Positions 38,203-60,939 of a stretch of DNA of 64,000 nt are shown in pieces (the stretch's first letter is position 1; every line of letters begins with the position of its first letter). The DNA comes from Verrucomicrobiaceae bacterium (GTDB lineage: Bacteria; Verrucomicrobiota; Verrucomicrobiia; Chthoniobacterales; JAATET01). A model generated the notes under the pieces. The model was not told the DNA's origin and made no database searches. It saw nothing but the letters and a program-made list of their open reading frames with translations. The translations under genes and the position numbers were made by a program. The DNA is taken from NCBI GenBank assembly GCA_027488755.1, contig JAIYAZ010000167.1, positions 1 to 64,000 of the forward strand, given 5' to 3'.

Positions 38203-38853
38203 TCAGCGCCCGGGCGGGTAGGGTCCGCGCACCGCGTCGCCCGCGACCACGTAGACGCGTTCGCCGGGCGCGGGCTCCCAGTTGGCCAGCCCGGTGAGCC
38301 CGCCGAAGGCCGGGAGGATCGCCCGCCGGGTGCCCAGCACAAAGGCTGGCAGGCGCAGGCGGTCGCGGCCCCGGCCCGCGAGACGCAGGCCGGGATGGAT
38401 GTGCCCGCAGAGCGCGTAACCGCCGGGGATCTCCGCCGGGTGGTGCGTGAGCCGCCACGGACCGATCGCCGCGCCATCCGGCAACCGTTCGAAGCCGACC
38501 GCGTCCGCCACGGCGAGGGCGCGCCGGTCGTGGTTGCCCGCCACCATGCGAATCCGGCGCTCACCGTGCCGTTCGCGCCAGCGGGCGAGCGTTTCGCGGG
38601 TGCCCGCCTCGCCGGCGTGAACGGAATCAAACACATCGCCGAGCATCCAAAGCTCCCGCGCCGCATGCCGCGCCAGCAGGGCGTCCAGCCGCGCCAGGTC
38701 GTCGGCAGTGGGTCCGCGGGGAATGGGCAGCGCCCCCGCGCGGGCCGAGGCGTCCTTGCCGAAATGGGGATCGGCGATGACCACGGCATCGCCCCAGACC
38801 AGCGCGCGCGCGGCATCCAGAAGCACCGTCTCCCCCGCCAGTTCCACCCTCAT
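38203..38853 (-). CDS. pdeM: Ligase-associated DNA damage response endonuclease (metallophosphoesterase, MPE/PdeM-like)
   Basis: VIADPHFGKDASARAGALPIPRG, LGDVFDS, AGNHDRRAL, CGHIHPGL; adjacent to Lhr-like helicase with 4-bp overlap. Confidence 0.9.
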   Translation of the reverse strand: MRVELAGETVLLDAARALVWGDAVVIADPHFGKDASARAGALPIPRGPTADDLARLDALLARHAARELWMLGDVFDSVHAGEAGTRETLARWRERHGERRIRMVAGNHDRRALAVADAVGFERLPDGAAIGPWRLTHHPAEIPGGYALCGHIHPGLRLAGRGRDRLRLPAFVLGTRRAILPAFGGLTGLANWEPAPGERVYVVAGDAVRGPYPPGR

Positions 38854-41264
38854 ACCGCGCCCTCCATCGCCGCCTCGATGCGCGCGAGCCGCGCCGCCAG
38901 CTCCTCGGTGGAAAGCTGCTCCCGGAGCCGCTCGACGAAGAGCGGATACGCAAAGGGCGTGGGCGCGGCGACGTCGACCAGCAAAAGCTCGCGCCGCCGT
39001 AGCTCGCCGAGCGTCGCGCGCAGCCGGGTCTGTTCGAGCTGGCTTTCGAGCACCTCGCGCGTGGCCTGGGCGAGCAGGCGGTTCGCCGGGTCGTATTTGG
39101 CAAACACGTCGTAGAGCAGCGAGGAGGAGACGGTGAGCTGACGGGTCGACTTGCGCGCGCGACCGACCCCTTCGTTCACCAGCCCGGCCACGCGGGCGAT
39201 CTCGCGAAACCGCCTCCGCGCCATCTCCGCCGCGTGGATGCTGCCCAGAATGTCGTCGAGGAGGTTGGCGCCGGAAAGCAGGTCGTCCGCAAGGGCCTCC
39301 GCCAGCGGCGCGGGCTCGGCGGAGAGCAACTCGAAGCCGTAGTCGTTCACCGCGAGCGAGAAGGTGAGCGGCGCGCGGCGGGCGAGGCGGAACGCGAACA
39401 ACGCCGCGAGCCCCTCATGCACGAGACGCCCGGCAAACGCGTAGAAGAACGCGTGGTGACCCTCGCGCGAAGTCAGCCGCTCGACGAGGAACTGCTCCTC
39501 GCCGGGCACGCGCGAGAGCCGCGCCTGCACGGCGAGCACGGGGGCCAGCCGGACCATCTCCGGCGTGTCCGGTGCCTCGGTGCGGGCGCGGTCGATCCGC
39601 CGGCGCACGCCCAACGAGAGGCAGGTCGACAGCGGCATTTTGCCGCCCATCCAACGCGGCACCGTGGTCGCGCCGCGGCGGGCCGCCCGCACGGTGGCCC
39701 GCAGGTCGCGCACCCGCACCAACTCCAGGCTGCGGCCGGCAAAAAGAAAACGGTCCCCGGGTCGCATCTTCGCCACGAAGGATTCCTCGACCGAGCCGAG
39801 CCGTGCGCCGTTCTGGAACTGCACCTCGACCGAGGCGTCGCTGGTAATCGTGCCGATGTTGAGCCGGTGAAGCCGGGCGACAGCCTCCGCGCGGGGGACG
39901 TAACGCCCGCCCTCGTCGACCAGGCGCGCGAATTCCGGGTAGGCGCGCAGGGTGGCCCCGCCGCTGGCGGCGAATTCGAGCGCCCATTGCCAGTCCTCGT
40001 CCGAAAGGTCGCGGTAGGCGTGGGTGCCCCGCACCTCGGCCAGCAGATCGCCGGGAACGAATCCCCCGGAGATCGCCACGGTCACGAGGTGCTGGCACAA
40101 CACGTCGAGCGGGGCGCGCAGCGGTTCGCGGGCTTCGATCACGCCGGCCCCGGCGAGGTCGCGCGCGGCGGCGATTTCCACCAGCTCGAAGGTGTTCGCG
40201 GGCACGCAGGCCACGACGCTTTCCGCCCCGGGCCGGTGTCCGCTGCGCCCCGCGCGCTGAAGCAGGCGGGCCACGCCCTTCGGACTGCCGATCTGGAGCA
40301 CGGCTTCGACCGGGGCAAAGTCGACGCCGAGGTCGAGGCTGGACGTCGCGACCACGGCGCGGAGCGCGCCGGTGCGCAGGCCTTCCTCGGCCTCGCGGCG
40401 GGTTTCGTCGGAGAGCGAGCCGTGGTGCAAGCCGAGCGGGAAGCCGGGCAGAGCCTCGCCGAGCGCGCGAAACCACGTCTCGGCCTGCGCGCGGGTGTTG
40501 GTGAACACAATGCTCGTGGCGCTGGCCCGGAGCCGCCCGGCCACCTGAGGGAGGAGCTGGAGGCCGAGGTGGCCGGCCCAGGGGAAGCGGGCCTCGGCGG
40601 GCGGCAGCAGCGTCTCGATGCGCAGGTTTTTGGGAACCTCCCCGCGCACCAGCCGCATGGTACGGTCGACCCCGCCCAGCGCGGCGGCGGCCTCGGCGGT
40701 GTTGCCAAGCGTGGCAGACAGCCCCCAGACGCGGGCCGCCGGGGCGAGCGCGCGCAGGCGGCCGAGCCCGAGCTCGGTGAGCACGCCGCGCTTGGTGCCG
40801 AGGAGTTCGTGCCATTCGTCCACGACGATCATCCGCAGCGAGGCGAAGTGCGGGGCAAACGCCGGCTGACTGAGGAGCACGGCCAGGCTTTCGGGCGTGG
40901 TGACGAGCGCGTGCGGCGGGCGGTCCGCGATTTTTTTGCGCGCATGGCCGGAGGTGTCGCCGGTGCGGCGGGCGACGGTCCAGGGCAGGCCGAGCCCGGC
41001 GAGCGGCTCCGCGAGCGCGTTTTCCGTGTCGGCCGCGAGGGCGCGCAGCGGGGTGATCCAGAGCACCTGTAGGCCGGAGCGGGGATGTTCCAGCGCCTCG
41101 CGCAGCGCGGCGAACCAGACGGCGTAGGTTTTGCCGGCGCCGGTCGTGCAGTGCAGCAGCCCGCTTTCACCGGCGGCGTGGGCGTCCCACACCTCGCGCT
41201 GGAAGGGAAACACGCGCCAGCCCCGGGCGGCGAACCAGGCCTTGATTGTCTTGTCGCCTTTCAA
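38850..41264 (-). CDS. Ligase-associated DNA damage response DEXH-box helicase (Lhr-Core-like)
   Basis: 804 aa; TTGAGKTYAVWFAAL, VVDEWHELLGTKRGV, LSATLGN, LLQRAGRSGHRPG. Confidence 0.93.
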   Translation of the reverse strand: MKGDKTIKAWFAARGWRVFPFQREVWDAHAAGESGLLHCTTGAGKTYAVWFAALREALEHPRSGLQVLWITPLRALAADTENALAEPLAGLGLPWTVARRTGDTSGHARKKIADRPPHALVTTPESLAVLLSQPAFAPHFASLRMIVVDEWHELLGTKRGVLTELGLGRLRALAPAARVWGLSATLGNTAEAAAALGGVDRTMRLVRGEVPKNLRIETLLPPAEARFPWAGHLGLQLLPQVAGRLRASATSIVFTNTRAQAETWFRALGEALPGFPLGLHHGSLSDETRREAEEGLRTGALRAVVATSSLDLGVDFAPVEAVLQIGSPKGVARLLQRAGRSGHRPGAESVVACVPANTFELVEIAAARDLAGAGVIEAREPLRAPLDVLCQHLVTVAISGGFVPGDLLAEVRGTHAYRDLSDEDWQWALEFAASGGATLRAYPEFARLVDEGGRYVPRAEAVARLHRLNIGTITSDASVEVQFQNGARLGSVEESFVAKMRPGDRFLFAGRSLELVRVRDLRATVRAARRGATTVPRWMGGKMPLSTCLSLGVRRRIDRARTEAPDTPEMVRLAPVLAVQARLSRVPGEEQFLVERLTSREGHHAFFYAFAGRLVHEGLAALFAFRLARRAPLTFSLAVNDYGFELLSAEPAPLAEALADDLLSGANLLDDILGSIHAAEMARRRFREIARVAGLVNEGVGRARKSTRQLTVSSSLLYDVFAKYDPANRLLAQATREVLESQLEQTRLRATLGELRRRELLLVDVAAPTPFAYPLFVERLREQLSTEELAARLARIEAAMEGAV

Positions 41265-55435: not shown

Positions 55436-57091
55436 CTAATTCCCCGGCAGGAGCAGGATGCGCCGGACCTCGGCGATGGCCTCGGGATTCTGGTGCGCGG
55501 GATGGGCCGACGGCACGACCAACTCGGACTCCGCCCCGGGCATGTGCGAACTCCAGTAGGGCACCACGCCGTCGCTTTTCTGCGGCGGAGTCTGGTCGTG
55601 GTTGCCGCCCTTGCCGCGATCCCCGGAGATGACGTGGTAGGGAATGCCCGACGTGAGCGGCACCTCGTTGATCGCGCGGACGAAGCGGTTGTTCGGCGCG
55701 AGGGTGTCGACGCTGTTCGGGATGCGGCGCAGCTTGAGGTCGTCGGTCTGGAAGGTAAGGATTTTTTGCATGTCGCGTCCCGCCTGAAGCAGCGTGGTCG
55801 GTGAGTGCACGAGGCTCGAACCGATCCGTCCCAGCCAGTGCGTGGCGAGATTACTGCCCTTGAGGGGCGCGGCGATGAAGATGACGCGACCCACCTCCGG
55901 GCGGTGCGAGAAGACGAGCGCCTCGGTGAACAGCTCGCGGCTCGCCGGGGAAAGCGGCGTGTCCGCCGGCTTGCGGTGGAAGATTTTTTCCCAGAGCTGA
56001 TCGCCGCTGTCGGTGATGAGCAGGCGGCTGATGCACCCGCCCATGCTGTGTCCGACGACGACCATCTTGCGCCGCAGCGGATAAACCTTCTGCACGCCGT
56101 CGAGTTCCTTGCGCAGCAGCGCGGCGGAGTAGGGATACGGGTAACCGCTCGGGTAGCTGTAGAACCAGACCTGATACCGGCGGCGGAACTCCGGATCGGC
56201 CCGCAGGGCGTTGATCATGGGCGTCCACGTCGCCTGCGTGTCCATGAGCCCGTGCACGACGAGGAGCACGGTTTTATTCGGGTCGTAGGGCTGGAGCCGA
56301 ACCAGCCGCGCGGTGTCGGCGTATTTTCCGGGCTGCAGCAGGCGGGAGATTTCCAGCTTCTTGGGATCGTTCCGGGCCAGCATGACCGCCAGGGGAACGG
56401 TGAAATCCGCCCCAAGCGGGTAGGTCCGGCCGTCCATCCGCACGGTCTCCACCGCCAGCGGATCCTCAAAGCCGAGTTCGCACTCGCGCCCGCGGAAACG
56501 GGCGATCGCCGTCACCCCGTAATACGTGCGCGGCATGCCGTAGCGCGCCTTTGCGTCGCGGTTGACCGCGCGGCCGACCGCCACCACCGGCGCGCCCAGG
56601 CCGGGACGGATCACGCGGTCCTTCACGTAGGTGCCGTTGACGTCGAATTCATCGGCCGGCGTGAAGTGGTAAAGCGCGGGGTTCCACTGCGGGCGGGGGT
56701 CCGGCTTGCGCCGAAGCACGAAGTCTCCGCCCGCCGCCGGCACGCGCAGGGGCTGCGCCCACGGGTCGAGCTTCGCCTTCTCGATCACCTTGACGATGCG
56801 GCTCACCGCAAAGTTGTAATCCTTCAAGGCGAGGGCATTCTGCGGATTCCGCTCCAGCTCGCGGGCGGCAATTTGCGCCGCCGTGAGGTATCCGGCCAGC
56901 GCCTCCAGCGGAGCCCGGCGCTCCCGGGCCTGGGCGGCCACCATCCCGGCCTGCGCGGTCGCAAGAGGTTCTGCGCAGCCCGGTGCAGGCACGTAGCGGG
57001 GGTCACGCTCCCGGATCGTCGAGTAGGTCGAGCAGCCCGCAAGGCCAACCAGGGAGAACAGAATCAACGGACGAATCACCACGCCGGCCAT
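55436..57091 (-). CDS. Alpha/beta hydrolase lipoprotein
   Basis: Start MAGVVIRPLILFSLVGLAGCS (lipobox); VLLVVHGLMDTQATW, VVVGHSMGGCISRLL. Confidence 0.88.
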   Translation of the reverse strand: MAGVVIRPLILFSLVGLAGCSTYSTIRERDPRYVPAPGCAEPLATAQAGMVAAQARERRAPLEALAGYLTAAQIAARELERNPQNALALKDYNFAVSRIVKVIEKAKLDPWAQPLRVPAAGGDFVLRRKPDPRPQWNPALYHFTPADEFDVNGTYVKDRVIRPGLGAPVVAVGRAVNRDAKARYGMPRTYYGVTAIARFRGRECELGFEDPLAVETVRMDGRTYPLGADFTVPLAVMLARNDPKKLEISRLLQPGKYADTARLVRLQPYDPNKTVLLVVHGLMDTQATWTPMINALRADPEFRRRYQVWFYSYPSGYPYPYSAALLRKELDGVQKVYPLRRKMVVVGHSMGGCISRLLITDSGDQLWEKIFHRKPADTPLSPASRELFTEALVFSHRPEVGRVIFIAAPLKGSNLATHWLGRIGSSLVHSPTTLLQAGRDMQKILTFQTDDLKLRRIPNSVDTLAPNNRFVRAINEVPLTSGIPYHVISGDRGKGGNHDQTPPQKSDGVVPYWSSHMPGAESELVVPSAHPAHQNPEAIAEVRRILLLPGN

Positions 57092-57163
57092 GGAAGAATC
57101 TGGCCGCCTGCTTGGCAAGAGCGGATGCCGCCGGGAGCTGGCCGGGCGGCGTATAGTGGAGCA

Positions 57164-59818
57164 ATGCTCGAAGTGCGCTACGAACTCGGGGTTCACCTGC
57201 CCGCGGAGAATCTCTGGCTCGATCCCCGCGGGGCGAGGGAGTTTGCCTTTGTCTCGCACGCGCACAGCGACCACACCGGGCGCCACCGGGAGACCATTCT
57301 CACCGAGGCGACCTCCCGATTGATGCGGGCCCGGCTCGGCCCGCCCGCAGGACGCGAGATCATCCTGCCGTATCGCGAACCGTCCTCGTGCCGCGGCGTG
57401 CAGGTGGAGTTGCTGCCCGCCGGCCACGTCCTCGGCTCGGCCCAGTGCCTGCTCACGACCGATCGCGGCACCCTGCTCTACACCGGCGATTTCAAGCTGC
57501 GCACCGGGCTGAGCTGCGAAGCCGCCGAGGCGCGGCCTGCGGATACGCTGATCATGGAAACCACCTTCGGCCTGCCGCGCTACGTCTTCCCCCCGGCCGA
57601 AGAGGTGCTCGCCGCCGTCGTGAAATTCTGCCTCGAGGCGCGCGAGGACGGCGCGACCCCCGTGCTCCTCGGCTACTCCCTCGGCAAGGCCCAGGAAATC
57701 CTCGCCGCGCTCGCCTCCGCGGGTCTCCCCATCATGCTCCACGGCTCCGTCTGGGGCATGACGCAAATCTACACCGACCTCGGCGTCACCTTCCCCCCGC
57801 ACGAGAAATACGCCGCCGACCGCCTCGCCGACCACGTCCTCATCTGCCCGCCCAGCGTCGCGGGCTCCGCCATGCTGCGAAAAATCACGTCGCGCCGCAC
57901 CGCCGTTCTCACCGGCTGGGCGATGGACGGCGGCGCCGCCCGCCGCGCGAAGGTCGACGCCGCCTTCCCGCTCTCCGACCACGCCGACTACGCCGACCTC
58001 CTCCGCTACGTGGAGATGGTCGCCCCCCGCCGCGTGCTCACGCTCCACGGCTTCGCCCGCGAGTTCGCCCGCGACCTGCGTGCCCGCGGCCTCGAGGCCT
58101 GGGCCCTCACCGGCGCGGACCAGCTCGAACTCGCCCTGCCGGCCAAAGCCGCCCCCGCCCGCCCCGCCCGAACGCCGGCCGCCCCGGAAATCGGATTCGG
58201 CCGCTTCGCCGCCCTCACCGAACGCATCGCCGCCGCTACCGGCAAGCTCGCCAAAGTCCGCCTGCTCGCCGATTTTCTCGCGGGCCTCGACGACGCCGAA
58301 CTTCCGCTCGCCGCCACCTGGCTCACCGGCCGCGCCTTTCCGCAGGTCAGCGCCCGCCCCCTCAAGCTCGGCAGCGCCATCATCCGCCGGGCACTGCTGT
58401 CCGCCTCGGGCCTGACGCCCTCCGAGCTCCAGGCCATTTCCCGCCGCCACAATGACATCGGCCCCACCACCGGCGAAGCCCTGGCCGCGAACGCCCCCGC
58501 GACCCCGCCTACCATCCCCGAAGTCGACGCCTTCCTTCGCCGGATCGAAGCCGCGCGCGGCCCGCTCGCGAAGACCACCCTGCTCGAAGGCTGGCTGCGG
58601 CGGCTCGCGGCGCGCGATGCGGTGGCCCTCGTCAAAATCCTCACCGGCGACCTGCGCATCGGGCTTAAGGAAGGCCTCGTCGAGGAGGCCGTGGCCACCG
58701 CCTTCCACGCCGAGGCCGAAACCGTCCGCGAAGCGCACATGCTGCTGGGCGATCTCGGGGAAACCGCCCGCCGCACCCGCGCCGGAACCCTCGACGGGAT
58801 CAACCTCACCCCGTTTCACCCCGTCAAGTGCATGCTCGCCAGCCCGGAACCCGATGGGGAGGGCGTCTGGCAGCGCATGACGGCCGCGGGCGGCCGCGAA
58901 GTCTGGCTCGAGGACAAGCTGGACGGCATCCGCGCCCAGCTCCACGCCCACGGCGGGCGGGTGGCGCTTTATTCGCGCGACCTCAAACCCCTCACCGCGA
59001 CCTTCCCGGAAATCGCCGCCGCCGCGCGCGGACTCGACGCCGTGCTGGACGGCGAAATCGTCGCCTGGCGCGACGGAAAACCGCTCGGATTCTTCGAGCT
59101 GCAAAAACGCCTCGGCCGCACCGAGCGCGATCTCTTTCTGCCGGCCGAGGTGCCGGTGACCTTCACCGCGTTTGACGTGCTCTGGCTCGACGGCCGCTCC
59201 ACCTTTCGCGAACCGCTCGCCGCCCGCCGCGCCCGACTCGAATCCCTCGCCCTTGTGGCCCCGCTGCAAATCCTGCCGACCACCCGCGCGCATTCCGCGG
59301 CGGACGTCGAAGCCGCCTTCCTCGCGGCCCGCGCACGGCGCAACGAAGGGCTCATCGCCAAGGACCCCGCCAGCCTGTATTCGCCGGGCCGGCGCGGACT
59401 CGCGTGGATCAAGCTCAAGAAGGCCGGCGCCACCCTCGATGTCGTCGTCACGAGCGTGGAATACGGCCACGGTCGGCGGCGCGGCGTGTTGAGCGACTAC
59501 ACGTTTGCCGTGCGCGACGAAGCCGGCGGCCTCGCGACGATCGGCAAGGCCTACAGCGGATTGACCGACGCCGAAATCGCCGCGCTCACCGAGCGCTTCC
59601 AGGCCAGCATCATCGGACAACGCGGCCGCATCTTCGACGTGCGGCCCGAGGTCGTGCTGGAGATTGCCTTTGATTCGGTCCAACCCAGCCCGCGCCACGC
59701 CAGCGGCCTCGCGCTCCGCTTTCCGCGCATCCACCGCATTCGCGCCGACAAGTCTCCCGCCGAAATCGACACCGTGGCGCACGCCCAACGGCTTGCAGGA
59801 CGGACGGAATCCGCGTAG
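57164..59818 (+). CDS. Fusion protein: MBL/beta-CASP exonuclease plus ATP-dependent DNA ligase (ligase-associated DNA damage response)
   Basis: 884 aa from ATG 57164. N-terminus: SHAHSDHTG (H32-A-H34-S-D36-H37), LYTGDFKLRTG, LGYSLGKAQEI, FPLSDHADY. C-terminus: ligase motifs EDKLDGIR (K585), LDGEIVAW, TAFDVLWLDG, NEGLIAKDP, AWIKLKK. Confidence 0.92.
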   Translation: MLEVRYELGVHLPAENLWLDPRGAREFAFVSHAHSDHTGRHRETILTEATSRLMRARLGPPAGREIILPYREPSSCRGVQVELLPAGHVLGSAQCLLTTDRGTLLYTGDFKLRTGLSCEAAEARPADTLIMETTFGLPRYVFPPAEEVLAAVVKFCLEAREDGATPVLLGYSLGKAQEILAALASAGLPIMLHGSVWGMTQIYTDLGVTFPPHEKYAADRLADHVLICPPSVAGSAMLRKITSRRTAVLTGWAMDGGAARRAKVDAAFPLSDHADYADLLRYVEMVAPRRVLTLHGFAREFARDLRARGLEAWALTGADQLELALPAKAAPARPARTPAAPEIGFGRFAALTERIAAATGKLAKVRLLADFLAGLDDAELPLAATWLTGRAFPQVSARPLKLGSAIIRRALLSASGLTPSELQAISRRHNDIGPTTGEALAANAPATPPTIPEVDAFLRRIEAARGPLAKTTLLEGWLRRLAARDAVALVKILTGDLRIGLKEGLVEEAVATAFHAEAETVREAHMLLGDLGETARRTRAGTLDGINLTPFHPVKCMLASPEPDGEGVWQRMTAAGGREVWLEDKLDGIRAQLHAHGGRVALYSRDLKPLTATFPEIAAAARGLDAVLDGEIVAWRDGKPLGFFELQKRLGRTERDLFLPAEVPVTFTAFDVLWLDGRSTFREPLAARRARLESLALVAPLQILPTTRAHSAADVEAAFLAARARRNEGLIAKDPASLYSPGRRGLAWIKLKKAGATLDVVVTSVEYGHGRRRGVLSDYTFAVRDEAGGLATIGKAYSGLTDAEIAALTERFQASIIGQRGRIFDVRPEVVLEIAFDSVQPSPRHASGLALRFPRIHRIRADKSPAEIDTVAHAQRLAGRTESA

Positions 59819-59841
59819 CACGGAACTTGCTGAAAGCGGTA

Positions 59842-60939
59842 ATGATGGTCCCCCGACGCCTTCTCATCCCCCCGGCCTGGCTGGGGGTTTGGGTTTTTCT
59901 GGCGATGACCGGGGTCACCCAGGCCGCCTCGCTCTCCGTGCTTTCGTGGAACATCCAACGCGGCATCGGGGACACCGCGGCCAACAGCACGACCCAGGCG
60001 GCGCTGGCCAACGTCGTGAATTACCTCAACCCCGACGTCTGGACGATCAACGAACTTGGGGCGGACACCCCCACCTACTCGCCGACCACCGCGCTCAATA
60101 GCCTCCAGTCCTTTGTCAGCACGCGCCTCACCATTTTTGGCGCAAATCCCGTGCTCGGCTCGGACTACTACGTCTACCTCGGCACCTACACCGACGGTTA
60201 TCTCGCCAATGCCATCGTCTCGCGCTACCCGCTGCTTTCCACGCGCAGCTACTCGGACGCCGGCGGCGGCTACCGGTCTCTGCGCGGCATGGCCTTCGCC
60301 GTGGTGGACGTGCCCGGCACCACCAACGACGTCGGCATCTTCACGATGCACCTCAAGTCCGGCAGCCTCACCGCGGACGCTGCCCGCCGCCAGGCCGAAG
60401 CCACCGCGAACCGAACCACGATCGCGAACTGGATGACGCAAAACCCGCGCCTCGGCGCGATCGTCACCGGTGACTTCAACGAAAGCGAGGATCCCCCCGA
60501 CGGCGACAATTGGAGCGGCGGCGTGCTTGGCGGAACCATCACGCTCGGCAACAACACCACGGCCACCTACCAACCCGTCACGACCATCCGCTCCGCCGGG
60601 CTCACGGATCCCGTGCCCGTGAGCCTTTCGGGCGACAACGACACCATCAGTTCCTCCAGCCCCAACGACCGCTTCGACTACGTGCTCCATGGCGGCAACG
60701 GCCTGACCTATCAAACCGGCCAGGTCTTCGACTCGCGCCGCTACACCGCGACCCAACTCAACGCCATCAACGCCGCAAACGGCCTCACGTTCACCACCGG
60801 CACATCCGCCGCCGCCTCGGATCACCTCGCCGTTTTTGGCGCGTTCGCGGTTGTTCCCGAGCCACATGTGCTCTGCCTGATCGCCCTGGCCGCCGGCCTG
60901 CTGCTGCTTAGAGCCCGGCGAGGCAGACGTATTTCATGA
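59842..60939 (+). CDS. Secreted endonuclease/exonuclease/phosphatase-family protein with PEP-CTERM anchor
   Basis: Signal peptide; LSVLSWNIQRGIGD, AIVTGDFNESEDPP, SDHLAVFGAF; C-terminus VPEPHVLCLIALAAGLLLLRARRGRR. Confidence 0.88.
   Translation: MMVPRRLLIPPAWLGVWVFLAMTGVTQAASLSVLSWNIQRGIGDTAANSTTQAALANVVNYLNPDVWTINELGADTPTYSPTTALNSLQSFVSTRLTIFGANPVLGSDYYVYLGTYTDGYLANAIVSRYPLLSTRSYSDAGGGYRSLRGMAFAVVDVPGTTNDVGIFTMHLKSGSLTADAARRQAEATANRTTIANWMTQNPRLGAIVTGDFNESEDPPDGDNWSGGVLGGTITLGNNTTATYQPVTTIRSAGLTDPVPVSLSGDNDTISSSSPNDRFDYVLHGGNGLTYQTGQVFDSRRYTATQLNAINAANGLTFTTGTSAAASDHLAVFGAFAVVPEPHVLCLIALAAGLLLLRARRGRRIS

Follow-up and report, generated by a model that had tools for sequence, protein, structure and literature searches.

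A fused MBL/beta-CASP nuclease and ATP-dependent DNA ligase in Verrucomicrobiota and the repeated decay of its ligase half

Structure and reality of the fused gene

We analysed a stretch of 64,000 nucleotides (the window) at the start of contig JAIYAZ010000167.1 of a Verrucomicrobiaceae bacterium (assembly GCA_027488755.1), in which one gene encodes an MBL/beta-CASP nuclease (Exo) and an ATP-dependent DNA ligase (Lig) on a single chain. The initial annotation had described one uninterrupted reading frame with nuclease motifs, a linker and ligase motifs, and both the translation and a Pfam search bear out its coordinates and motifs. The gene is composed as follows:

57164-59818, plus strand: fused Exo-Lig gene, 884 aa, ATG to TAG, stop-free, with 48 homologous full fusions
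57164-58123, plus strand: MBL/beta-CASP nuclease domain, aa 1-320 (TIGR04122 over aa 7-315, AlphaFold2 model, fold matches)
58124-58195, plus strand: Ala/Pro-rich linker, aa 321-344 (pLDDT below 50, no in-frame start codon)
58196-58696, plus strand: ligase N-terminal DNA-binding domain (DBD), aa 345-511 (PF04675, DNA_ligase_A_N, 81.5 bits)
58865-59419, plus strand: ligase nucleotidyltransferase (adenylation) domain, aa 568-752 (PF01068, DNA_ligase_A_M, 126.9 bits)
59477-59752, plus strand: ligase OB domain, aa 772-863 (PF04679, DNA_ligase_A_C, 48.6 bits)

The nuclease carries H32, H34, D36 and H37 in motif II (the HxHxDH stretch H32-H37), H88 in motif III, D109 in motif IV, E132 in motif A, H273 in motif B and H295 in motif C. 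The linker sequence LPAKAAPARPARTPAAPEI covers aa 325-343, and the complete ligase that follows (aa 345-877) includes KLDG at aa 585-588 (58916-58927), with K585 (58916-58918) as the predicted AMP acceptor, and AWIKLKK at aa 747-753. The metal site and ligase motifs I, III, IIIa, IV, V and VI are all intact. Nuclease and ligase domains indeed share one chain according to Pfam, which finds RMMBL (aa 268-312, 24.6 bits, above its cut-off) together with DNA_ligase_A_N, A_M and A_C. The NCBIfam scores were lower than those of the named families: TIGR04122 (ligase-associated exonuclease) matched aa 7-315 with 238 bits (curated cut-off 325), and TIGR04120 (bacterial ATP ligase) matched aa 347-877 with 298.6 bits (curated cut-off 400), a threshold passed by none of the full-fusion genomes tested. 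Since both scores stay under the curated cut-offs, the fusion appears to form a diverged subfamily, and its nuclease a homologue outside the TIGR04122 equivalog. An AlphaFold2 model of the full chain (mean pLDDT 84, pTM 0.50) consists of two well-folded parts separated by a disordered segment (aa 318-341, pLDDT below 50), so that the relative placement of nuclease and ligase is not predicted. The ligase half is closest in fold to ATP ligases of the archaeal/eukaryotic type.

The length of the reading frame proves nothing in this GC-rich DNA (GC by codon position 0.74/0.52/0.87 around the gene), because an even longer antisense frame of 1461 aa (55436-59821, minus strand) overlies the fused gene; the evidence is homology. 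This falls on the plus frame, for which full-length homologues with 45-58% identity exist in many separate assemblies, and the antisense frame was therefore rejected as a true gene. Compared with one of these homologues (locus L011), differences per codon position were 0.33/0.28/0.57, with the third position in excess. The N-terminal two thirds of the antisense frame are a shadow of the fused gene, and its part below approximately position 57098 looks like a real minus-strand gene, by eye probably for an alpha/beta-hydrolase-like lipoprotein.

The single-chain fusion was searched for in Verrucomicrobiota, plasmids and phages. A scan of GTDB genomes yielded 80 loci, all titled as Verrucomicrobiota-type organisms, and full fusions proved common in this phylum (31 of the 394 genomes sampled), with Chthoniobacter flavus and Spartobacteria assemblies as nearest relatives of the fusion described here. 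In an alignment of the 48 full fusions the nuclease residues H32, H34, D36, H37, H88, D109, E132, H273 and H295 and the ligase residues K585, D587, G588, E631, E728, K733, K750, K752, R844 and R852 were invariant. Phage sequences gave weak, ligase-only matches and no mobile context was seen, on which grounds a mobile or phage origin was rejected. At the junction between nuclease and ligase of this protein there is no ATG, GTG or TTG in frame, hence nothing that would readily serve as an internal start for translating the ligase by itself. That two separate genes were joined by an assembly or annotation error we regard as next to impossible and reject: the contig does come from a metagenome-type draft in 169 pieces and nothing else was found that could favour an error, but the 48 full fusions come from different assemblies, which include single-contig genomes, and an independent set of fusions has been published (PMC10140301).

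That publication also means that the architecture, thought to be new in the initial annotation, was already in print. Rzoska-Smith et al. (2023; PMC10140301) describe 13 Antarctic metagenomic fusions with the same domain order, and credit an earlier case (OTER_RS15935 of Opitutus terrae) to Ejaz & Shuman 2018. Both the Opitutus terrae and the Dry Valley fusions have an RMMBL/MBL-beta-CASP part followed by DNA_ligase_A_N, A_M and A_C, as here; Dry Valley protein DV-1-1 is of similar size (959 aa, versus 884 aa), and the Dry Valley genes likewise do not adjoin Lhr and MPE, the partner genes treated below. The host lineage (here most likely the order of Chthoniobacter, as judged from the nearest relatives) and the sequence differ, and the likeness is one of description and not of direct sequence comparison. 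A further difference is the presence here of Lhr-Core and MPE in the genome of the fusion, at a distance of 16 kb. Dead-ligase and orphan forms of the protein, to which we turn now, are not discussed in the part of that paper available to us. The fusion architecture itself is thus known and the ligase-decay series is the new comparative part; we did not find such a series described in the literature searched, the coverage of which was limited.

Decay of the ligase across Verrucomicrobiota

Sorting of the nuclease-bearing proteins with profiles built from the full fusions uncovered three kinds of reduced forms. Four fusions carry a dead ligase (L025, L026 of Pelagicoccus mobilis, L122 of genome G296 and L123 of genome G228), in which nuclease, DBD and nucleotidyltransferase domain are kept and the OB domain is gone, while K585 is replaced by E, E, R and L, E631 by V, V, T and T, E728 by R, R, Q and D, and K750 by Q, R, T and S. 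Five distinct proteins, mostly from Akkermansiaceae, end after the DNA-binding domain (Exo-DBD), and 84 distinct orphan nucleases of about 325-340 aa stand alone. In all dead-ligase, Exo-DBD and orphan forms the nuclease retains its metal site and the residues of motifs A-C without change (the non-motif residue H193 varies in some). In Verrucomicrobiota it is the nuclease that is conserved, whereas the ligase was on several occasions inactivated, cut back to its DBD or lost altogether.

The orphan nucleases also differ in genomic company. None of 34 sampled orphan-nuclease genomes had a match to TIGR04120 (E <= 1e-3), and none had MPE (E <= 1e-15) or Lhr-Core (E <= 1e-80); the comparison of orphan with fusion genomes gave a Fisher p of ~1e-11, a value not corrected for relatedness. 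Outside these 34, two exceptions were seen. Genome G219 has an Exo-DBD protein (the same locus as L041); it has retained Lhr-Core and MPE and has no LigB-type ligase. In genome G401 (L035, 4781-9345) the genes for Exo, a VanZ-like protein, Lhr and MPE form a row and the genome has no ATP ligase match; this row is a ligase-free version of the Lhr-Core/MPE/Lig/Exo system.

We consider the direction of these changes to be loss, as judged from nesting, flanking genes and the dead and truncated forms; parsimony counts do not orient the change. The tree was built from the nuclease domains alone, with ligase columns excluded, and is a quick tree with SH-aLRT support only and some long branches. It requires several state changes for the orphans, and the orphans as a single clade are rejected (AU p = 7e-5). 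For instance, orphans L146 (G142) and L150 (G299) group with the full fusions L098 (G266) and L118 (G086) with 99% SH-aLRT, all four genomes belonging to genus g22; another genus (g24) holds both a full fusion (G092) and an orphan (G278), and the dead-ligase fusion L026 is sister to the full fusion L031 (99%). The neighbours are shared as well: an AI-2E transporter gene lies upstream in 10 full and 29 orphan loci, a DUF3108 gene downstream in 5 full, 2 dead-ligase and 37 orphan loci, and an MPG glycosylase gene (methylpurine-DNA glycosylase, PF02245) farther downstream in 4 full, 2 dead-ligase and 22 orphan loci. Since orphans are nested among fusions, in the same genera and with the same neighbours, the ligase was probably lost several times. 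Ligase remnants were not found downstream of orphan genes by tblastn (best E 0.06), and this absence of debris points to deletion rather than to a recent frameshift.

The opposite scenario, in which the free nuclease is ancestral, the ligase was added several times and the orphans do not descend from ligase loss, could draw on the same lack of downstream remnants and on the fact that parsimony counts treat gain and loss alike. We nevertheless hold it to be quite improbable, as dead-ligase and DBD-only forms can be derived only from complete ones, the orphans sit within fusion clades with 96-99% SH-aLRT (even within genus g22), one junction and one domain order are common to all fusions, and fused and orphan loci have matching flanking genes.

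None of these flanking genes qualifies as a new partner of the orphans: AI-2E transporter, DUF3108, MPG glycosylase and DoxX genes stand equally beside full fusions, which makes them shared synteny that names no partner. In 28 loci (e.g. L066 and L030 of Opitutaceae) the PF02245 gene follows the nuclease gene at a distance of about 1 kb, on the other strand. A short DoxX-family gene immediately precedes the nuclease gene, in the same orientation, in full, dead-ligase and orphan loci (L023, L026, L097, L098, L122 and L146).

Partner genes and neighbours

The initial annotation had related the fusion to the Lhr-Core/MPE/Lig/Exo system, and this relation holds, as the genome also encodes one strong Lhr-Core and one MPE, by an adjacent pair of genes that it had not mentioned:

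38850-41264, minus strand: Lhr-Core helicase, 804 aa (TIGR04121, 1045.8 bits, cut-off 850; WH_Lhr and DEAD_assoc domains)
38203-38853, minus strand: MPE/PdeM metallophosphoesterase, 216 aa (TIGR04123, 185.7 bits, cut-off 150)

The MPE gene overlaps the end of the Lhr-Core gene by 4 bp, and the pair lies 16 kb from the fused gene on the opposite strand, so the four activities do not form one gene cluster in this genome. Fusion, Lhr-Core and MPE genes stand together or within ~4 kb in seven sampled relatives (G145, G010, G018, G089, G101, G284 and G257), and the cluster also occurs at relative locus L015. Among the full-fusion genomes, 24 of 31 have Lhr-Core (E <= 1e-80) and 23 of 31 have MPE (E <= 1e-15). 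Compared with the Pseudomonas-type cluster (TIGR04120-04123), all four activities are present here too, Lhr-Core and MPE above their cut-offs. In that cluster, however, Exo and Lig are separate proteins, whereas here they form one chain encoded outside the Lhr-MPE operon, with a nuclease that is ~31% identical (median) to the split Exos and with scores below the TIGR04122 and TIGR04120 cut-offs.

The NAD-dependent ligase LigA was present in 17 of 17 genomes checked, this one included. Four genomes (G080, G142, G278 and G092) have two NAD-dependent ligase genes each; in three of them the second one aligns to no more than roughly the first 570 of the 652 positions of the model and is without the C-terminal part. 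Immediately 3' of the fused gene (59827-60939, plus strand) lies a gene for an endonuclease/exonuclease/phosphatase-family protein (PF03372), whose C-terminal tail VPEPHVLCLIALAAGLLLLRARRGRR resembles a PEP-CTERM sorting signal; in view of this tail the protein is probably exported.

Trimming, sealing and the substrate of the nuclease

Given one chain with complete active sites, partner genes in the genome and repeated loss of the ligase while the nuclease is kept, the gene is best read as that of a trim-and-seal enzyme with a dispensable sealing half. We infer the activities, their polarity, the hand-over and the substrate. Like its relatives SNM1/Apollo and RNase J, the N-terminal nuclease would most likely work 5' to 3'; it would trim the end of a strand and leave a 5'-phosphate beside a 3'-hydroxyl. 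The C-terminal ligase would then clamp the same nick through its DNA-binding domain and seal it through Lys585-AMP, the linker of ~24 residues tethering the halves so that trimming could hand over to sealing. Where present, Lhr-Core (a 3' to 5' helicase) may supply strand separation and MPE (a Mn-dependent nuclease) further end cleaning. It is probable, in our judgement, that the gene encodes such a bifunctional end-processing and nick-sealing enzyme, with trimming handed over to sealing and the nuclease as the conserved half.

Several observations weigh against this trim-and-seal enzyme. Lineages with the nuclease and no detected ATP ligase suggest trimming without need of a ligase; at the thresholds applied, 7 of the 31 fusion genomes have neither Lhr-Core nor MPE, from which it follows that the four-part pathway is not obligatory; the nuclease module was insoluble in the published work (PMC10140301); and with His at motif C and a fold that resembles RNA nucleases no less than DNA nucleases, the nuclease may not act on DNA. 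Of the end-processing plus sealing enzyme foreseen in the initial annotation, the single-chain Exo-Lig with complete motifs stands, and DNA ends are a possible substrate. Orphan and ligase-dead relatives indicate that trimming and sealing need not go together, and the nuclease carries an RNA-type motif C.

A looser arrangement, with a covalent link that serves mainly expression or stoichiometry and two independent enzymes that hand over nothing at a shared nick, would fit a linker that is flexible and unconserved, the persistence of orphan nucleases without ligase, and the report (PMC10140301) that the ligase module split off a related fusion is an active ATP-dependent nick-sealing DNA ligase by itself. 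It is harder to reconcile with the four fusions that still carry a dead ligase and the five in which the DBD alone is joined to the nuclease, which suggest that the nuclease uses this part for positioning, and we therefore rate it as possible but rather unlikely. Dead ligases stay long proteins and some lineages keep the DBD alone, which suggests that this domain is of use to the nuclease too. We lean slightly towards a view in which Exo forms the core of the function and the ligase is an optional addition, shed in graded steps (complete ligase, dead ligase as DNA clamp, DBD only, nothing), the nuclease working independently of the ligase, possibly with RNA or RNA-DNA hybrids as substrate, and the replicative NAD ligase sealing where needed.

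The substrate of the nuclease may be DNA or RNA, as an RNA-type motif C and fold stand against an Apollo-like profile. The AlphaFold2 model of the nuclease (pLDDT 93.6, pTM 0.91) matched archaeal CPSF/FttA (aCPSF1) and CPSF-73 with TMq 0.71-0.77 and SNM1A and Apollo with 0.64-0.69, and the best Foldseek E-values were those of RNA beta-CASP nucleases; in sequence profiles, the longest match was to Apollo (aa 8-293, 86 bits). All 156 nuclease domains examined have His at motif C (H295 here), as does CPSF-73, and not the Val of SNM1 DNA nucleases (PMC7458816). On this basis the protein could be mainly an RNA nuclease of the CPSF-73/RNase J kind, and the fusion would remove RNA primers, R-loop RNA or 5'-ribonucleotide ends and seal the remaining nick. 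Such a role would agree with the motif C His and the top fold matches, with the motif B-C spacing of 22 residues (like CPSF-73 and Artemis), with the Pfam RMMBL match and with the preference of mycobacterial Lhr-Core for RNA-DNA hybrids (PMC7437997). Yet the near-full-length profile matches are to the DNA exonuclease Apollo, whose compact size the domain shares, the covalent link to a DNA ligase points to DNA, and replacement of the motif C Val by His in SNM1A had no effect (PMC7458816). We thus regard the RNA role as a tentative, minority option. The name given to the family, 'DNA damage response exonuclease', reflects annotation rather than a result; no published activity for the Exo of the Lhr-Core/MPE/Lig/Exo pathway was found in the literature searched. 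To our knowledge, the substrate of this pathway has not been established.

Among better-known enzymes, aCPSF1/FttA, CPSF-73 and RNase J have the motif C His and the RMMBL match in common with the nuclease, but here KH domains and the RNase J C-terminal region are missing and the nuclease is fused to a DNA ligase. The human SNM1A, Apollo and Artemis nucleases, the last with its partner ligase IV (PDB 3w1g), offer a parallel of an MBL/beta-CASP nuclease working with an ATP ligase of the same DBD-nucleotidyltransferase-OB plan; the nuclease matches Apollo nearly end to end, and ligase IV (PDB 3w1g) is among the fold matches of the ligase. Artemis and ligase IV are two bound proteins, whereas here one chain is found, with His and not Val at motif C. 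The fusion is the covalent counterpart of this human partnership. The dead-ligase and orphan forms separate the nuclease from the sealing function, and any task of the orphans must be one carried out without the ligase; that an ATP-dependent DNA ligase was found in none of the 34 sampled orphan genomes warns against annotating each such nuclease as part of ligase repair.
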